Shown here in pieces: positions 59,301 through 63,376 of a stretch of DNA of 64,000 nucleotides. The position numbers were made by a program, and so were the translations under genes. The notes below the pieces were generated by a model. The model saw only the letters and a list, made by a program, of their open reading frames with translations. It ran no database searches and was not told the origin of the DNA. The DNA lies in contig VGGU01000003.1 of assembly GCA_016868475.1 (NCBI GenBank), positions 18,569 through 82,568 of the forward strand. Reading direction: 5' to 3'. Within the stretch, counting starts at the first letter, position 1. Each line of letters opens with the position of its first letter. The stretch is from Bacteroidota bacterium. Lineage in GTDB: Bacteria; Bacteroidota; Bacteroidia; Chitinophagales; Chitinophagaceae.

Positions 59301-59579
59301 AGCACCATTTATTGCAGCTGTCTTATAGTAGCCTCTTACATCAAGATTTCCAGATGCAAAGGCAATACTGGACATACCTGTGATAACTACATCAAAAGCA
59401 TTATTGTTCTTAAAGTTAAACGTAACAAGAGCATTTGCATTATTATTTGCAAAACCAGTAGTTGAAACTGTAGTTTGGGCAATTGTGAACAATGTTGAGC
59501 TCAAGAACATCCATAAAACCAGAAAAGCGGAAAGCAGTCTGGAATTGTTACTTTTTTTAAAAGTAAAGATTGGTTGCAT
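56328..59579 (-). CDS. Secreted multidomain surface protein: Ig-like repeats, GEVED domain, proprotein-convertase P-like domain, T9SS C-terminal sorting domain
   Basis: VWIDFNQDGDFIDAGEAVYTS...YGQVEDYTV; KFSIPDHTWPGDMAISLRTPNGQVLNL; C-terminal LWIYPNPTTGAFQIRYY...VYNTTGQLV. ATG at 59579 (MQPIFTFKK) gives a clean signal peptide. Confidence 0.85.
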   Translation of the reverse strand: MQPIFTFKKSNNSRLLSAFLVLWMFLSSTLFTIAQTTVSTTGFANNNANALVTFNFKNNNAFDVVITGMSSIAFASGNLDVRGYYKTAAINGAPGAISAANGWIQFASQNITGIMNTTTTTTQPFLSSTSLIVPAGATYGIVLEAVVAGSTTAALRYSTIPAGVYTFSGGGCDLIAGTNISYGGIAAPGAPTFTPRGFLGSVTFSQAMGCSGTPAPGNTLSSVTSVCPGINFNLSLQNAPPLTGITYQWQSSANGTTWAAIAGATNATLTRNQLAATYYRCLVTCSGNTGASTPVLVALLPNSSCYCAAGALSTAFEKISNVTFGTINNNSTSTAGYENFLSQSTNVIAGQTLPISVSISGAFSSDEVRVWIDFNQDGDFIDAGEAVYTSARGFGPHVGNITISGSATLGATRMRVRMHDAAFGGNTTPCGNSSYGQVEDYTVNIQPCVQNAFTAHPANVTTTCGSNATFSVAASGSVPSFTWQFRTNPAAAWQELTNGGVVSGATTSTLTFTNVPTTWNGYEIRSILRGPCTGVTPSNSATFTVNSIQTNVSPAAATICRGDLQRLTITNFASTSAPMTSTFTSTDVPKAIPDANAAGVLSNLSVSGLPAGATITGLAVKFSIPDHTWPGDMAISLRTPNGQVLNLDWYISGTGYGPGNGMTNTVISSVGTAALSSSVSPFTGTFRADLRGTADASPSVMPVTTTSWSALYGPAAGNYTLGVRDSYGGDIGTLTAWSVDVTYVIPSYGEGVWTATPAEVGTMFLDAAGLVPYNGTREDTIYVRPNVNTSYSVFFTSTISPCTSAPAQVPVNVGLPISNLSVPATVATCVGSGFTITATHDAIPATNAAPIYQWQQSADGGVTWSSIGGATTPVLTIASTTQAMNGVRYRILSRSGSCVIAASGSTTLVVNALPSITLTSPTTSLTPGKTTTVTGSSTPAAATWSWTLNGATIAGTGNTQKVTIDEIGNYQATVRDVNGCVNRSNVLNIGAEASDKLWIYPNPTTGAFQIRYYHAGDMNEKRIISVYNTTGQLVATKTFNLTYTSSPYLRMDVDLSGAARGTYAVKVAHEYSGKIVAGLVLVQ

Positions 59580-59726
59580 AGATACTGTTTTGGTTATTAG
59601 AACACTCTGAATCAAGAAACTATAAATTAGGTGTGAAAGATAAACGATTTTTTTTAAAACTCTTAACAATTGAATAAAAAGCCATAAGTCAAAATACAAA
59701 ACTATGATTATCAGTATTTTAGATTA

Positions 59727-60131
59727 CTACCATTTATCAACGTCCTCTGAATTAATTTGATCTGAGCTAATATCTGTATTTGGTTTAGCCAGCTCTGCGT
59801 TTTCTTGAGGAGGAATAGGGCTTGTGTTTTCTTCTTCCATTTCAACATGATCAAAAGCATCAAAATCAAAATTGGGCATCAATTCTGTTTTCACATAATC
59901 AACCGCTTCTCCTAATGCTTTGACAAATTTGTTAAAATCCTCTTTGTAAAGAAAGATTTTATGCCGGTCATAACCATTATCATCAAAACGCTTTCTGCTC
60001 TCGGTTATGGTCAGATAGTAGTCATTCCCCTTAGTGGCACGTACATCAAAAAAATAAGTTCGCCTTTTACCCGCACGAAGGCGTTTACTGTAAATGCTAT
60101 CCATTTTTTTTTCGTTATTCTCGTAATTCAC
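59727..60131 (-). CDS. DUF3276/PUR-alpha-like nucleic-acid-binding protein
   Basis: RAGKRRTYFFDVRATKGNDYYLTITESRKRFDDNGYDRHKIFLYKEDFNKF. Confidence 0.88.
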   Translation of the reverse strand: MNYENNEKKMDSIYSKRLRAGKRRTYFFDVRATKGNDYYLTITESRKRFDDNGYDRHKIFLYKEDFNKFVKALGEAVDYVKTELMPNFDFDAFDHVEMEEENTSPIPPQENAELAKPNTDISSDQINSEDVDKW

Positions 60132-60308
60132 TGTGATGATTTTTGCAGTTTAACTGTTAAATTTCGGTATCTACAAATATAAAAATCTTTGGAATACACC
60201 CAAAATTATGGGCTGTAATGCGTCTTTTGATTTATTGATTACAGGGTAACTCAAGATAATCATACTCATTGATTTGGTTAAAAATTGGCCTTGCCTTACA
60301 TTCGCGCC

Positions 60309-60396
<88 letters not shown>

Positions 60397-61386
60397 GTTA
60401 GGAAATGTCTTTGTTGGCTCGTCCTCTGCGAGGGCTCGCCAGCCGATTTTAAGCGCAAATTGGAATTTTTTATCTTTCAAAATGAAGTTCGAGCCGATAT
60501 TTTTTAGAAATGCTCGGATTTCTTGATTGTCGCTTTGCGACAAAAGAATTTTGGCTTGGCTACTGGCTAAAATCATTTCTTTCATCGGTTCGAGCCAATT
60601 ATTTCCTTTTTGTTCAAAATCGTTAATTTTCTGTTGGATGTCCAGCTTCTCGTTGAGAAGTTTTTGTTTTTTCTGCTGGTATTCTTCCGGCTCAATTCCT
60701 TTCCCGCCTATAAACAAATCAAGCAGGTTTTCGGCTTTGGTTTCAATCTCTGTTTTCTTGATCTGAAGATTTTGAACAAACACTTTCGTTTCTTCTTTTG
60801 CCTGTTTCCGTTCATTGTCTATCTCAGCAAGCATATTTTCTGCCCAGTCGTCAGGCAAAGAAACTTTTTGAATAATTTCTTTCATCTGTTCAACAAGTTT
60901 TTCTTCCCGCAAATATTTTTCATTACAAGGTTGCTTTTTCTTGGTGCAACGATAATAGTGATGTCCTTTTTGTTTTTCGGCAGTTATGAGGCAGTCGCAA
61001 TTTCCGCATTTCATCAAACCAGAAAAAGCAAACTCATGTTTTCGCTTGCGTTTCTTTTTTCCTCGATTGCTCATTACATGTTGAACAGAATCAAAAAGTT
61101 TCTTGGAAATAATTGGCTCGTGCGTTCCGTCATAAATTTCACCGTTGAAAGAAAATACTCCATAATAAATCGGATTTTGCAAAAGTCGCTGGACACAGGA
61201 AACAGAAAGAACATTGCCTTTGTAGCTTCTTAACCCCGCTTGATCCAAAATTTTGGCAAGGGCTTTTAATGTATATTCGCCAGTTGAATAAAGCTCAAAT
61301 GCTTTTTTAACAAATGGTGCTTTTTCACTATCAATATCAATCGCCTTTGTTTTTGGATTATTTGAATATCCAAGCGGGGCAAATTG
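60397..61386 (-). pseudogene. C-terminal portion of a large serine recombinase (recombinase domain, zinc ribbon, coiled coil); catalytic N-terminus absent
   Basis: FAPLGYSNNPKTKAIDIDSEKAPFVKKAFELYSTGEYTLKALAKILDQAG...LLQNPIYYG; CGNCDC...CTKKKQPC zinc ribbon. In-frame TAA at 61405-61407 just upstream; the frame runs on antisense through the tRNA to 60232. Confidence 0.85.
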
Positions 61387-61849
61387 CCTGTTTAATATGC
61401 ACAGTTAGTTCTTCAAAATCAAAATCTTGTAATTTTAAAGACACAACTTCACTTACCCGTAGTCCTGCTCCATAGGCGAGTGCCAACAAAAGTTTATGTT
61501 TTGTATTTTTAGCTGATTCTAAAATCCTGTTTACTTCGCTTCGTGATAAAACAGTAGGTAAACTCTTTGGTTTTTTAGCAGATTGAATTTCGAATTTTTG
61601 GTTATTCTTAAGCACATTACGGTAGTAAAACTTAATAGCATTCAAAAATAGATTTCTGCTTTGAGGTGAAATGTGCTTTGTCTCACATTGGAGTAAAAAA
61701 TTTCGAATATCTTCCTGATCAAGCTTTGTAAAATCTCTACCCTTAAAAGAAAAGTATTCTCGCAAGCCATAAAGGTAGCTTTTTATAGTTTTGGAGCTAT
61801 AATTCTTGATTTTCAGTTCTCGTTTAGCTTTATCAATTTCTGTTTGCAT
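61358..61849 (-). pseudogene. 3'-truncated tyrosine recombinase (integron-/XerC-like integrase), N-terminal half only
   Basis: MQTEIDKAKRELKIKNYSSKTIKSYLYGLREYFSFKG...LPTVLSRSEVNRILES...LAYGAGLRVSEVVSLKLQDFDFEELTVHIKQA, then ICPAWIFK-stop. Box I Arg present; HxxR and Tyr nucleophile absent. Confidence 0.85.
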
Positions 61850-61964
61850 AAATGCCTGAAAATTATTATAATTAGTATAGTTTTTATACGATTTAAACTT
61901 ATCATAACTGCGTATAATATACAAGTTATAGTCAAGATTATGAAAATATTTCGTATAATAACGA

Positions 61965-61971
61965 GTTAAGT
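61965..61971 (+). other. Integron-like recombination core GTTRRRY (GTTAAGT) at the proposed attI/cassette boundary
   Basis: GTTAAGT matches GTTRRRY; extended GTTAAGTG is the exact reverse complement of CACTTAAC at 62526-62533. Confidence 0.65.
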
Positions 61972-61990
61972 GAAATAAAATAATTTTAAT

Positions 61991-62512
61991 ATGATTCTCG
62001 AAGGTGAAAAAGTTCAACTAAGACCGACGTCAGTGGAGGAAATTCCCATTTTTTTCAAATTCGCTACTGATTCACATGCTACTCCATATTGGTATGGCGA
62101 TCTTTACGGAGATAAAATACCAACGTATGATGAGTTTATTGCTGATTGGAAAAGATATTACTTTGATGGAAGCGCGCCAGAGCTCGGTCGAAGTTTTTTA
62201 ATTATCGTCGACGGCAATCCTGTTGGTCAGGTAAACTATAATGATATAAATCGTACTGATAATTCTGTTGAATTAGATATAATCATCGCCGACGATAATA
62301 ATAAAGGAAAAGGATTAGGATCTGACGCGCTCAAAACATTAGTAAAATATCTTTTCCAAGAGATGAATATTAAAGTTTGTTGCATTGATGCGATCGCCAC
62401 TAATCCGAGGGCAATTCGTGCGTACGAGAAAGCTGGTTTTGCAATTGAAAATGAATTTGAAAAAAATGGGAATTTTTGGAAGCATATGGTGTTAAGGAGT
62501 GAATCATATTAA
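61991..62512 (+). CDS. GNAT family N-acetyltransferase (AAC(6')-like architecture)
   Basis: MILEGEKVQLRPTSVEEIPIFF; NKGKGLGSDALKTLVKYLF (acetyl-CoA loop); NPRAIRAYEKAGF. Confidence 0.85.
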   Translation: MILEGEKVQLRPTSVEEIPIFFKFATDSHATPYWYGDLYGDKIPTYDEFIADWKRYYFDGSAPELGRSFLIIVDGNPVGQVNYNDINRTDNSVELDIIIADDNNKGKGLGSDALKTLVKYLFQEMNIKVCCIDAIATNPRAIRAYEKAGFAIENEFEKNGNFWKHMVLRSESY

Positions 62513-62526
62513 AATTATTTTACATC

Positions 62527-62656
62527 ACTTAACAAAGAATATCTGGCTCAAAAATTTTTCACAATTAGATTTTTACACTAATGAAAGAAAAATTTTCTCG
62601 ACCCAAATTCATTTCCGCTACGCTCCAATGAACTTCAGATATTCTTAACGTTAAAG
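62527..62656 (+). repeat. attC-like palindromic site (about 130 bp) after the acetyltransferase
   Basis: R'' ACTTAAC, 11-bp arms AAGAATATCTG (62535-62545) / CAGATATTCTT (62636-62646), R' GTTAAAG (62650-62656; 6/7 to GTTRRRY), central variable region with further hairpins. Confidence 0.65.
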
Positions 62657-62691
62657 AAAAGAATTTGCCGCCAAACTGGGCGAAGTCTAGA

Positions 62692-62848
62692 GTTCCGCTA
62701 AAAGCGGAACGAAAAACCTGAAATCGTCCAATCCGAAAGGGTCGCTTCTGCGGGCGGGCGGAAAGGAGGGCCTGGGAGGAATGCCGCCCGCCCTACAAAT
62801 TTTGGACGAAATCAGTTCGAATTTTTTCGAAAGCACACCGCCAAGCGG
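62692..62848. repeat. Tandem series of GC-rich and AT-rich hairpins, no convincing ORF
   Basis: GTTCCGCT-AAA-AGCGGAAC; TCGTCCAA[GGGCGGGCGG…CCGCCCGCCC]…TTGGACGA; TTCGAA-TTTT-TTCGAA; CCGC-CAA-GCGG. Confidence 0.75.
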
Positions 62849-62923
62849 GGATCTTAGCCTCAAAAAGGTGATAGGTTGCAGAATAGGCACTTCACCCTAC
62901 TCTCTTTCCGTTTATCTTAACAC

Positions 62924-63376
62924 TTATTTTTTTAAGCGGCTTTCGTAAGCACTTATCCAATCCTTCACAGTCATTTTTTTCATTAACTCCCCAATGAGTT
63001 TATAGGGAATGTCACTAAATTTTTTAAACCGTATACAACTCTTACCCATATCCAATTTTTGATTGGTGTATTTAGGGTATTCCTTGACAAACCAGTTGAA
63101 CAAGATGGGATCTAGATACAGTCCCATATGGTAAAAGTTTATGGAGTGTTTTTGCGAAGCAATTCCAGCAAAAGGCAATGGCTCAATTGGTTTGCAATGA
63201 TAACCATTAGGATAAAGAGAATGTGGCACAACATATCCTAACCCGCCGTAACTTATCGCGGCTTCAAAACCTTTGGGTAAATTTTTTACAATTATTTCAT
63301 GAAGCTTTTTGAAAGGTTCAGCTCTATCCGCCGGAACGTTGGCGAGTATTTCATTTATTGAATTTATTTTAGCCAT
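62924..63376 (-). CDS. DUF1801/YdhG-like protein
   Basis: MAKINSINEILANVPADRAEPFKKLHEIIVKNLPKGFEAAISYGGLGYVVP; IRFKKFSDIPYKLIGELM. Confidence 0.8.
   Translation of the reverse strand: MAKINSINEILANVPADRAEPFKKLHEIIVKNLPKGFEAAISYGGLGYVVPHSLYPNGYHCKPIEPLPFAGIASQKHSINFYHMGLYLDPILFNWFVKEYPKYTNQKLDMGKSCIRFKKFSDIPYKLIGELMKKMTVKDWISAYESRLKK

Follow-up and report, generated by a model that had tools for sequence, protein, structure and literature searches.

We consider it likely that the feature described here is a single gene cassette, comprising an attI site, a GNAT acetyltransferase gene and an attC site, of an integron type that belongs to CPR bacteria (Patescibacteria), that it entered a Bacteroidota genome within a 2.44-kb fragment transferred to the 3′ end of a tRNA-Ser gene, and that folding of the whole cassette, which is inferred, matters in its movement. 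The attI and attC sites, the cassette arrays of related genomes and a crossover-precise difference between cassettes at attI are directly observed, as is a complementarity that is specific to each cassette, begins at the R box and continues into the gene's codons. Insertion of cassettes at the G^TT core is ascribed to a short tyrosine recombinase that is related to IntI and XerA and is without the IntI additional domain; this recombination is an inference, and none was observed.

The positions of the elements within the window (the whole stretch of 64,000 nucleotides that was analysed) are listed in Table 1. All of the elements recognised by an earlier sequence-only reading (divergent integrase, core, acetyltransferase gene and attC-like palindrome) are present, and its view of them as a one-cassette integron is upheld by a held-out covariance model, by multi-cassette arrays in relatives, and by a stop in homology at the crossover. 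The tyrosine-recombinase gene that it reported does start at 61849 on the minus strand, but only the N-terminal 151 or so residues remain, and these are joined near 61396 to what is left of a serine recombinase. In Pfam this fragment has the N-terminal SAM-like domain and no more than the initial third of the Phage_integrase domain, and is without the catalytic C-terminal half (HxxR..H..Y); the local integrase therefore cannot be active, and an intact integrase, as expected of an integron active in this genome, is not present. The reading frame of the serine recombinase runs on through the tRNA region to 60232, and we note that the 60232-61398 fragment, joined at about 61396 to the integrase fragment, makes a chimeric pair of two recombinases. 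The GNAT protein has no more than about 30% identity with AAC(6′)-type enzymes (tblastn), and searches of the genome and viral collections returned no close relatives of it. The arms of the window attC are AAGAATATCTG and CAGATATTCTT, closed by AACGTTAAAG, and its parts follow in the order R'' CACTTAAC, L'' AGAATATCTG, hairpin arm A, linker ACCCAAATT, hairpin arm B, AACTTC, L' CAGATATTCT and R' GTTAAAG. Other than the tRNA, no known RNA family in Rfam comes near its cut-off in the region.

Table 1. Features of the cassette locus and of the insert that carries it, in window coordinates.
Feature	Position	Strand	Remarks
Host tRNA-Ser(TGA)	60309..60396	+	ARAGORN; left boundary of insert at tRNA 3′ end (..CTCTCTCCGCCA); empty site in sister genome G003
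2.44-kb insert of CPR (Dojkabacteria-type) DNA relative to G003	60397..62837	.	CCGCCA direct repeat at flanks
Truncated serine recombinase	60397..61398	-	Recombinase and Zn-ribbon domains; Pfam, translation
Integrase fragment, N-terminal ~151 aa of patch-less integron-type tyrosine recombinase	61396..61849	-	84% identical to full-length L018:5001-5813; alignment A2
Tyrosine-recombinase start codon	61849	-	Seen in sequence
attI, TTCGTATAATAACGAG^TTAAGTG	61950..61972	+	Crossover G61965^T61966; motif kept upstream of ~17 related integrases; L018 homology ends at core
Core GTTAAGTG	61965-61972		Seen in sequence
Terminal stem, left arm, begins with core GTTAAGTG	61965..61997	+	33 nt, 94% complementary to 62501-62533
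Cassette, predicted 685-nt circle if excised	61966..62650	+	Crossover points from attI and attC; circular single-strand fold z -9.4
GNAT acetyltransferase gene, 173 aa	61991..62512	+	PF13302 (Acetyltransf_3), Pfam E 1e-15
Inner arm in GNAT gene	62040..62062	+	Partner 62453-62475, 23 nt, 100%
Inner arm	62146..62159	+	Partner 62346-62359, 14 nt, 100%
Inner arm	62195..62213	+	Partner 62287-62305, 19 nt, 84%
Inner arm in GNAT gene	62453..62475	+	Partner 62040-62062, 23 nt, 100%
Terminal stem, right arm, ends with R'' CACTTAAC	62501..62533	+	Partner 61965-61997
Inverse core R'' CACTTAAC	62526-62533		Seen in sequence
attC, three-way branched	62526..62657	+	Held-out covariance model R1, 56.4 bits, E 7e-12; 28-pair structure, strong covariation
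Right tail of insert, ends GCACACCGCCA	62658..62837	.	Absent from sister G003; no relative among examined loci

The identification of the recombination sites rests on comparison with related loci. About 17 related integrases are preceded by a motif TTCGYATARTAACSAG^TTRNRYGAAAT, and in three pairs of loci (the window and L018, L048 and L173, and L048 and L049) homology ends at the core plus 4 nt. A scan for attC sites with strict arms failed, with conserved extra bases interrupting the arms; it was loosened, and a covariance model was then used instead. This model was built from the sites of 14 relatives with the window held out, and finds the window site, well clear of background (56.4 bits, E 7e-12), as its sole match in 64 kb. 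The attC sites have in common the order R''-L''-arm A-CCCAWATT-arm B-AACWTC-L'-R', and a structure of 28 pairs in which 89.6% are standard pairs; double-sided changes occur at 19 of these pairs, in 87 cells as compared with 29.9 in shuffles, a value that none of 500 shuffles reaches. The model has 45, 52 and 54 matches in three sets of loci; loose thresholds were applied to the first two, which overlap in part. The multi-cassette arrays sought beside integrases of the same type were found, with at least 17 attC sites spread over 28 kb in one genome (G156) and several in others. Thus attC-bounded cassettes with conserved secondary structure (from the held-out match and the arrays), an attI beside the integrase with joining at G^TT (from the roughly 17 loci and the end of homology at the core), and arrays with different genes in related genomes, each a mark of integrons, are all present; the IntI-specific additional domain is not.

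The closest relative of the recombinase fragment is a full-length enzyme (84% identity) in a metagenome-assembled genome (MAG) of Candidatus Dojkabacteria (locus L018), a clade listed by NCBI among the candidate phyla. It was the recombinase that traced the family, which the GNAT could not do because of its low identity to AAC(6′)-type enzymes. At the DNA level the window and L018 are 85% similar over the recombinase and the entire intergenic stretch, up to the core ACGAGTTA, past which L018 has another cassette (a 125-aa ORF) and its own attC-like site with an L box of the same type. Related integrases are encoded by 22 of 192 relatives of the L018 genome, and by 47 of 380 genomes sampled from the Dojkabacteria phylum (about 12%). 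The integrase is about 270 aa long, and aligned with a provisional IntI1 sequence it shows a gap of about 42 residues where the IntI additional domain around patch III is missing; by strict definition it is therefore not IntI. It scores 219 bits, in two pieces, with the IntI profile TIGR02249 (cut-off 265), and 218 bits, just under the cut-off of 220, with NCBIfam NF040815 (XerA / integron integrase), and its PDB matches are, best first, the XerC-like 4a8e, XerA 5hxy and IntI4 2a3v. In a tree it falls with IntI, apart from three Xer rows (94/95); IntI itself lies within the CPR enzymes, on a branch that is not resolved. With only three Xer rows, long branches and a provisional E. coli XerD sequence, this grouping with IntI rather than Xer is a lead only.

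The proposal that the integrase is unlike those of classes 1-3, is closer to CPR-style enzymes and sits in a Bacteroidota chromosome is borne out both by its nearest relative in Dojkabacteria and by an empty site in a sister of the host. In this sister genome of the host genus (G003, contig C9) the window flanks 59552-60396 and 62838-63252 are adjacent, and the first 20 nt or so of the insert match the flank of the tRNA-Ser gene in the Dojkabacteria locus L018. From sequence alone, the insert would fit homology-facilitated transfer of CPR DNA at tRNA-Ser, and an acetyltransferase gene has apparently moved from an ultra-small bacterium into a Bacteroidota genome. The truncated fragment has the look of a transferred relic; with its integrase broken, the cassette is probably stranded in its host, and no further attC of the CPR-integron type was found in the host MAG or in 38 relatives. 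It is improbable, and yet cannot be fully excluded, that an assembler rather than a transfer event joined a CPR segment to the Bacteroidota contig: the tRNA-Ser genes of the two groups have common sequence at the left junction, and the insert itself is a mosaic, but the right junction has only CCGCCA in common, a stretch too short to be joined through k-mers, and in G003 the two flanks abut exactly. Classical IntI genes (above the NCBI cut-off) are present in 83 of 297 sampled Bacteroidota genomes; the genomes listed for the host's family have none.

The complementarity between core and inverse core, which the sequence-only reading had put at 8 nt and taken as the mark of a cassette, is real, but it extends to 33 nt at 94%; its explanation is right for the 8 nt, which classical cassettes also have, and leaves the 33 nt and the self-complementary gene unexplained. 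Within this terminal stem, which also holds the start and stop codons of the GNAT gene, further pairs of arms are nested about nearly one centre and span the coding sequence. The region 61940-62680 folds with z-scores from -7.6 (as RNA) to -10.9 (as DNA) relative to dinucleotide shuffles, and the circle (61966-62650) folded closed has a z of -9.4. With the protein and codon usage of the GNAT gene kept constant, none of 100 synonymous shuffles folds as well as the real codon order (z -4.4 as RNA and -5.9 as the DNA bottom strand; -6.8 and -7.1 with 24 and 20 shuffles).

The same pattern is apparent in cassettes of the relatives. With boundaries taken from the attC sites and the first 8 nt excluded, the starts of cassettes pair better with their own ends than with those of other cassettes, the values beyond the R box being 16.6 (own) versus 9.1 (cross) for 20 cassettes, 14.8 versus 9.3 for 59, and 15.7 versus 8.7 for 33 held-out cassettes from ten new loci; in each set, none of 20000 permutations reaches the observed sum of own-end pairing. 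Classical controls (28 Bacteroidota cassettes whose IntI lies above the NCBI cut-off) pair within the 8-nt R box (7.64 versus 4.86) and have no excess beyond it at positions 8-68 (7.68 versus 7.50, p 0.25), with a weak difference over 8-108 (9.71 versus 9.08, p 0.02). Codon order follows suit: the median synonymous-shuffle z is -1.97 for 46 cassette genes and -0.16 for 38 other genes on the same contigs (p 3e-6), and in the held-out set -2.51 for 26 cassette genes and -0.15 for 45 neighbours (p 3e-7). After trimming of 60 nt from both ends the values are -1.37 versus -0.11 (p 4e-4), and -1.64 versus -0.46 (p 2e-4) in the held-out set; for classical cassettes z is -1.08. Single-gene scores are noisy (20-24 shuffles each), and the claim is carried by the group comparisons. 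A first set of control genes was dropped, a member with a z of -5.7 being in fact cassette 2 of L018. Folded as closed circles, CPR cassettes have a median z of -5.85 and classical ones of -2.5. Some cassettes have no fold-back, and long multi-gene cassettes fold mainly at their ends.

The fold-back is thus a matter of observation, and the mechanism behind it of inference. Classical attC sites recombine as folded single strands (PMC8352920, PMC9668308), and we propose that the CPR cassette in movement would likewise be a folded single strand, which of the two strands being unresolved. An attempt to assign the strand from wobble asymmetry was abandoned: an early excess of A.C mismatches was due in part to a conserved terminal loop (GAAAT/ACATC), and with the loop excluded there are about as many A.C as G.T mismatches (47 versus 42). 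After excision as a circle, the cassette would form a single continuous rod made up of the attC hairpin, the R boxes, the terminal stem and the gene. This rod may stabilise the recombination site, protect the single-stranded cassette, for example in natural transformation, or both; its longer duplex may also compensate for the missing IntI domain. Selection for the rod, or mutation templated by the hairpin, would then shape the choice of synonymous codons in the gene, and which of these two causes the fold-back is open.

A reading in which there is no selection for folding, and the fold-back of an otherwise ordinary integron with canonical attC mechanics is the passive by-product of hairpin-templated repair (quasi-palindrome correction) in a folded single strand, requires nothing more than the folded state already known for attC, and transition-type mismatches (A.C, G.T) are somewhat over-represented in the long stems. 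We think it rather unlikely, as classical cassettes, which are also single-stranded at times, have no extension beyond the R box, so that a folded state of unusual length or extent would have to be assumed for the CPR system. Selection and templated repair both imply a folded whole cassette. That the fold acts instead in RNA, with a rod-like cassette transcript or circular RNA controlling translation or stability as in obelisks and viroid-like RNAs, draws some support from the quality of the rod as RNA (z -7.6) and from the start and stop codons inside the terminal stem of the window gene. It is very doubtful in the face of a stem that begins exactly at the DNA crossover, of attC pairs that vary by full Watson-Crick swaps with few one-sided changes, of reversed ORFs that in some cases fold too, and of the lack of G.U excess over A.C; nor was any reverse transcriptase or ribozyme seen. 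We give almost no credence to an element in which the recombinase inverts or transposes the GNAT gene between terminal inverted repeats of 33 bp. Inverted repeats do surround the gene and a tyrosine recombinase adjoins it, but the cassettes of relatives each have a different repeat of their own followed by an attC of common structure, the arrays run head to tail, and homology breaks at G^TT and not at both repeats. Invertible-element and transposon readings were ruled out by this array structure, and one repeat per family, as they would require, is not found.

The CPR system resembles several known ones in part. It has in common with classical integrons (IntI/attI/attC, including sedentary chromosomal ones) a divergent tyrosine recombinase with attI, a G^TTRRRY-type core, the R''-L''-L'-R' structure of attC and head-to-tail arrays, but differs in its integrase of about 270 aa without the additional domain, in branched three-way attC sites with conserved CCCAWATT and AACWTC, and in the terminal and whole-gene fold-back, which is absent from the classical cassettes tested. 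Archaeal integrons (Ghaly et al. 2022, PMC9668308) likewise lie outside the usual bacterial phyla, occur in MAGs and have foldable attC sites, although archaeal IntIs are reported to retain the additional domain that the CPR family is without (PMC9668308). In length and domain layout the CPR integrase resembles XerA, XerC and XerD, from which it is set apart by the adjoining attI and arrays and by its place in the tree (94/95, with the few Xer rows and long branches noted above). Obelisks and viroid-like rod RNAs also have coding sequence within a rod-like self-complementary molecule, whereas the CPR cassette is chromosomal DNA with recombination sites, has no G.U excess, and no RNA replication genes were seen.

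No description of integrons in CPR bacteria or of fold-back cassettes was found in the open-access papers searched (subscription papers and preprints lie outside this search), and an integron type whose cassettes can form whole-gene hairpins seems little-described. Integrons are thought to require only a short folded attC; in CPR cassettes the fold extends over the full length and has a measurable effect on the codons used. What a cassette encodes is in this way tied to how it moves, and synonymous recoding becomes a direct test of single-strand cassette transfer. The family also takes integrons into a phylum of ultra-small bacteria, where about 12% of the genomes sampled have them; its integrase may escape existing IntI searches, and these integrons bear on the origin of integrons. 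Natural competence is known from CPR bacteria. We speculate, with no more than tentative confidence, that they hold a distinct integron lineage whose patch-less integrase lies near the base of IntI, which moves genes as self-folding single-stranded circles, and in which selection for folding reaches the coding sequence, such that cassettes are jointly optimised as protein and DNA rod, possibly for single-strand uptake by competent CPR cells.

Several minor features of the arrays are also apparent. Arm B of many attC sites (L018, L050, L048, L052) contains TGATAAAAT/TGATAATAT-like sequences similar to an extended -10 promoter, and an attC may supply a promoter for the next cassette. Many cassettes (e.g. 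in L134, L050 and L053) have one of two types of end in front of R'': either TTACATC, a mirror of the start GAAATAA on the other side of a conserved internal loop, or GCTCGGGTC, apparently a side hairpin beside the R box. Similar cassette starts (GTTATACGCAATTCAA...) occur at differing array positions in L061, L064, L134 and L185, which suggests a shared family of mobile cassettes. The ORF is reversed in some cassettes (L060 cassette 3, L063 cassette 1, and in L134), and L048 and L062 have, as the first unit beside attI, a short palindromic cassette of nested hairpins, apparently without an ORF.
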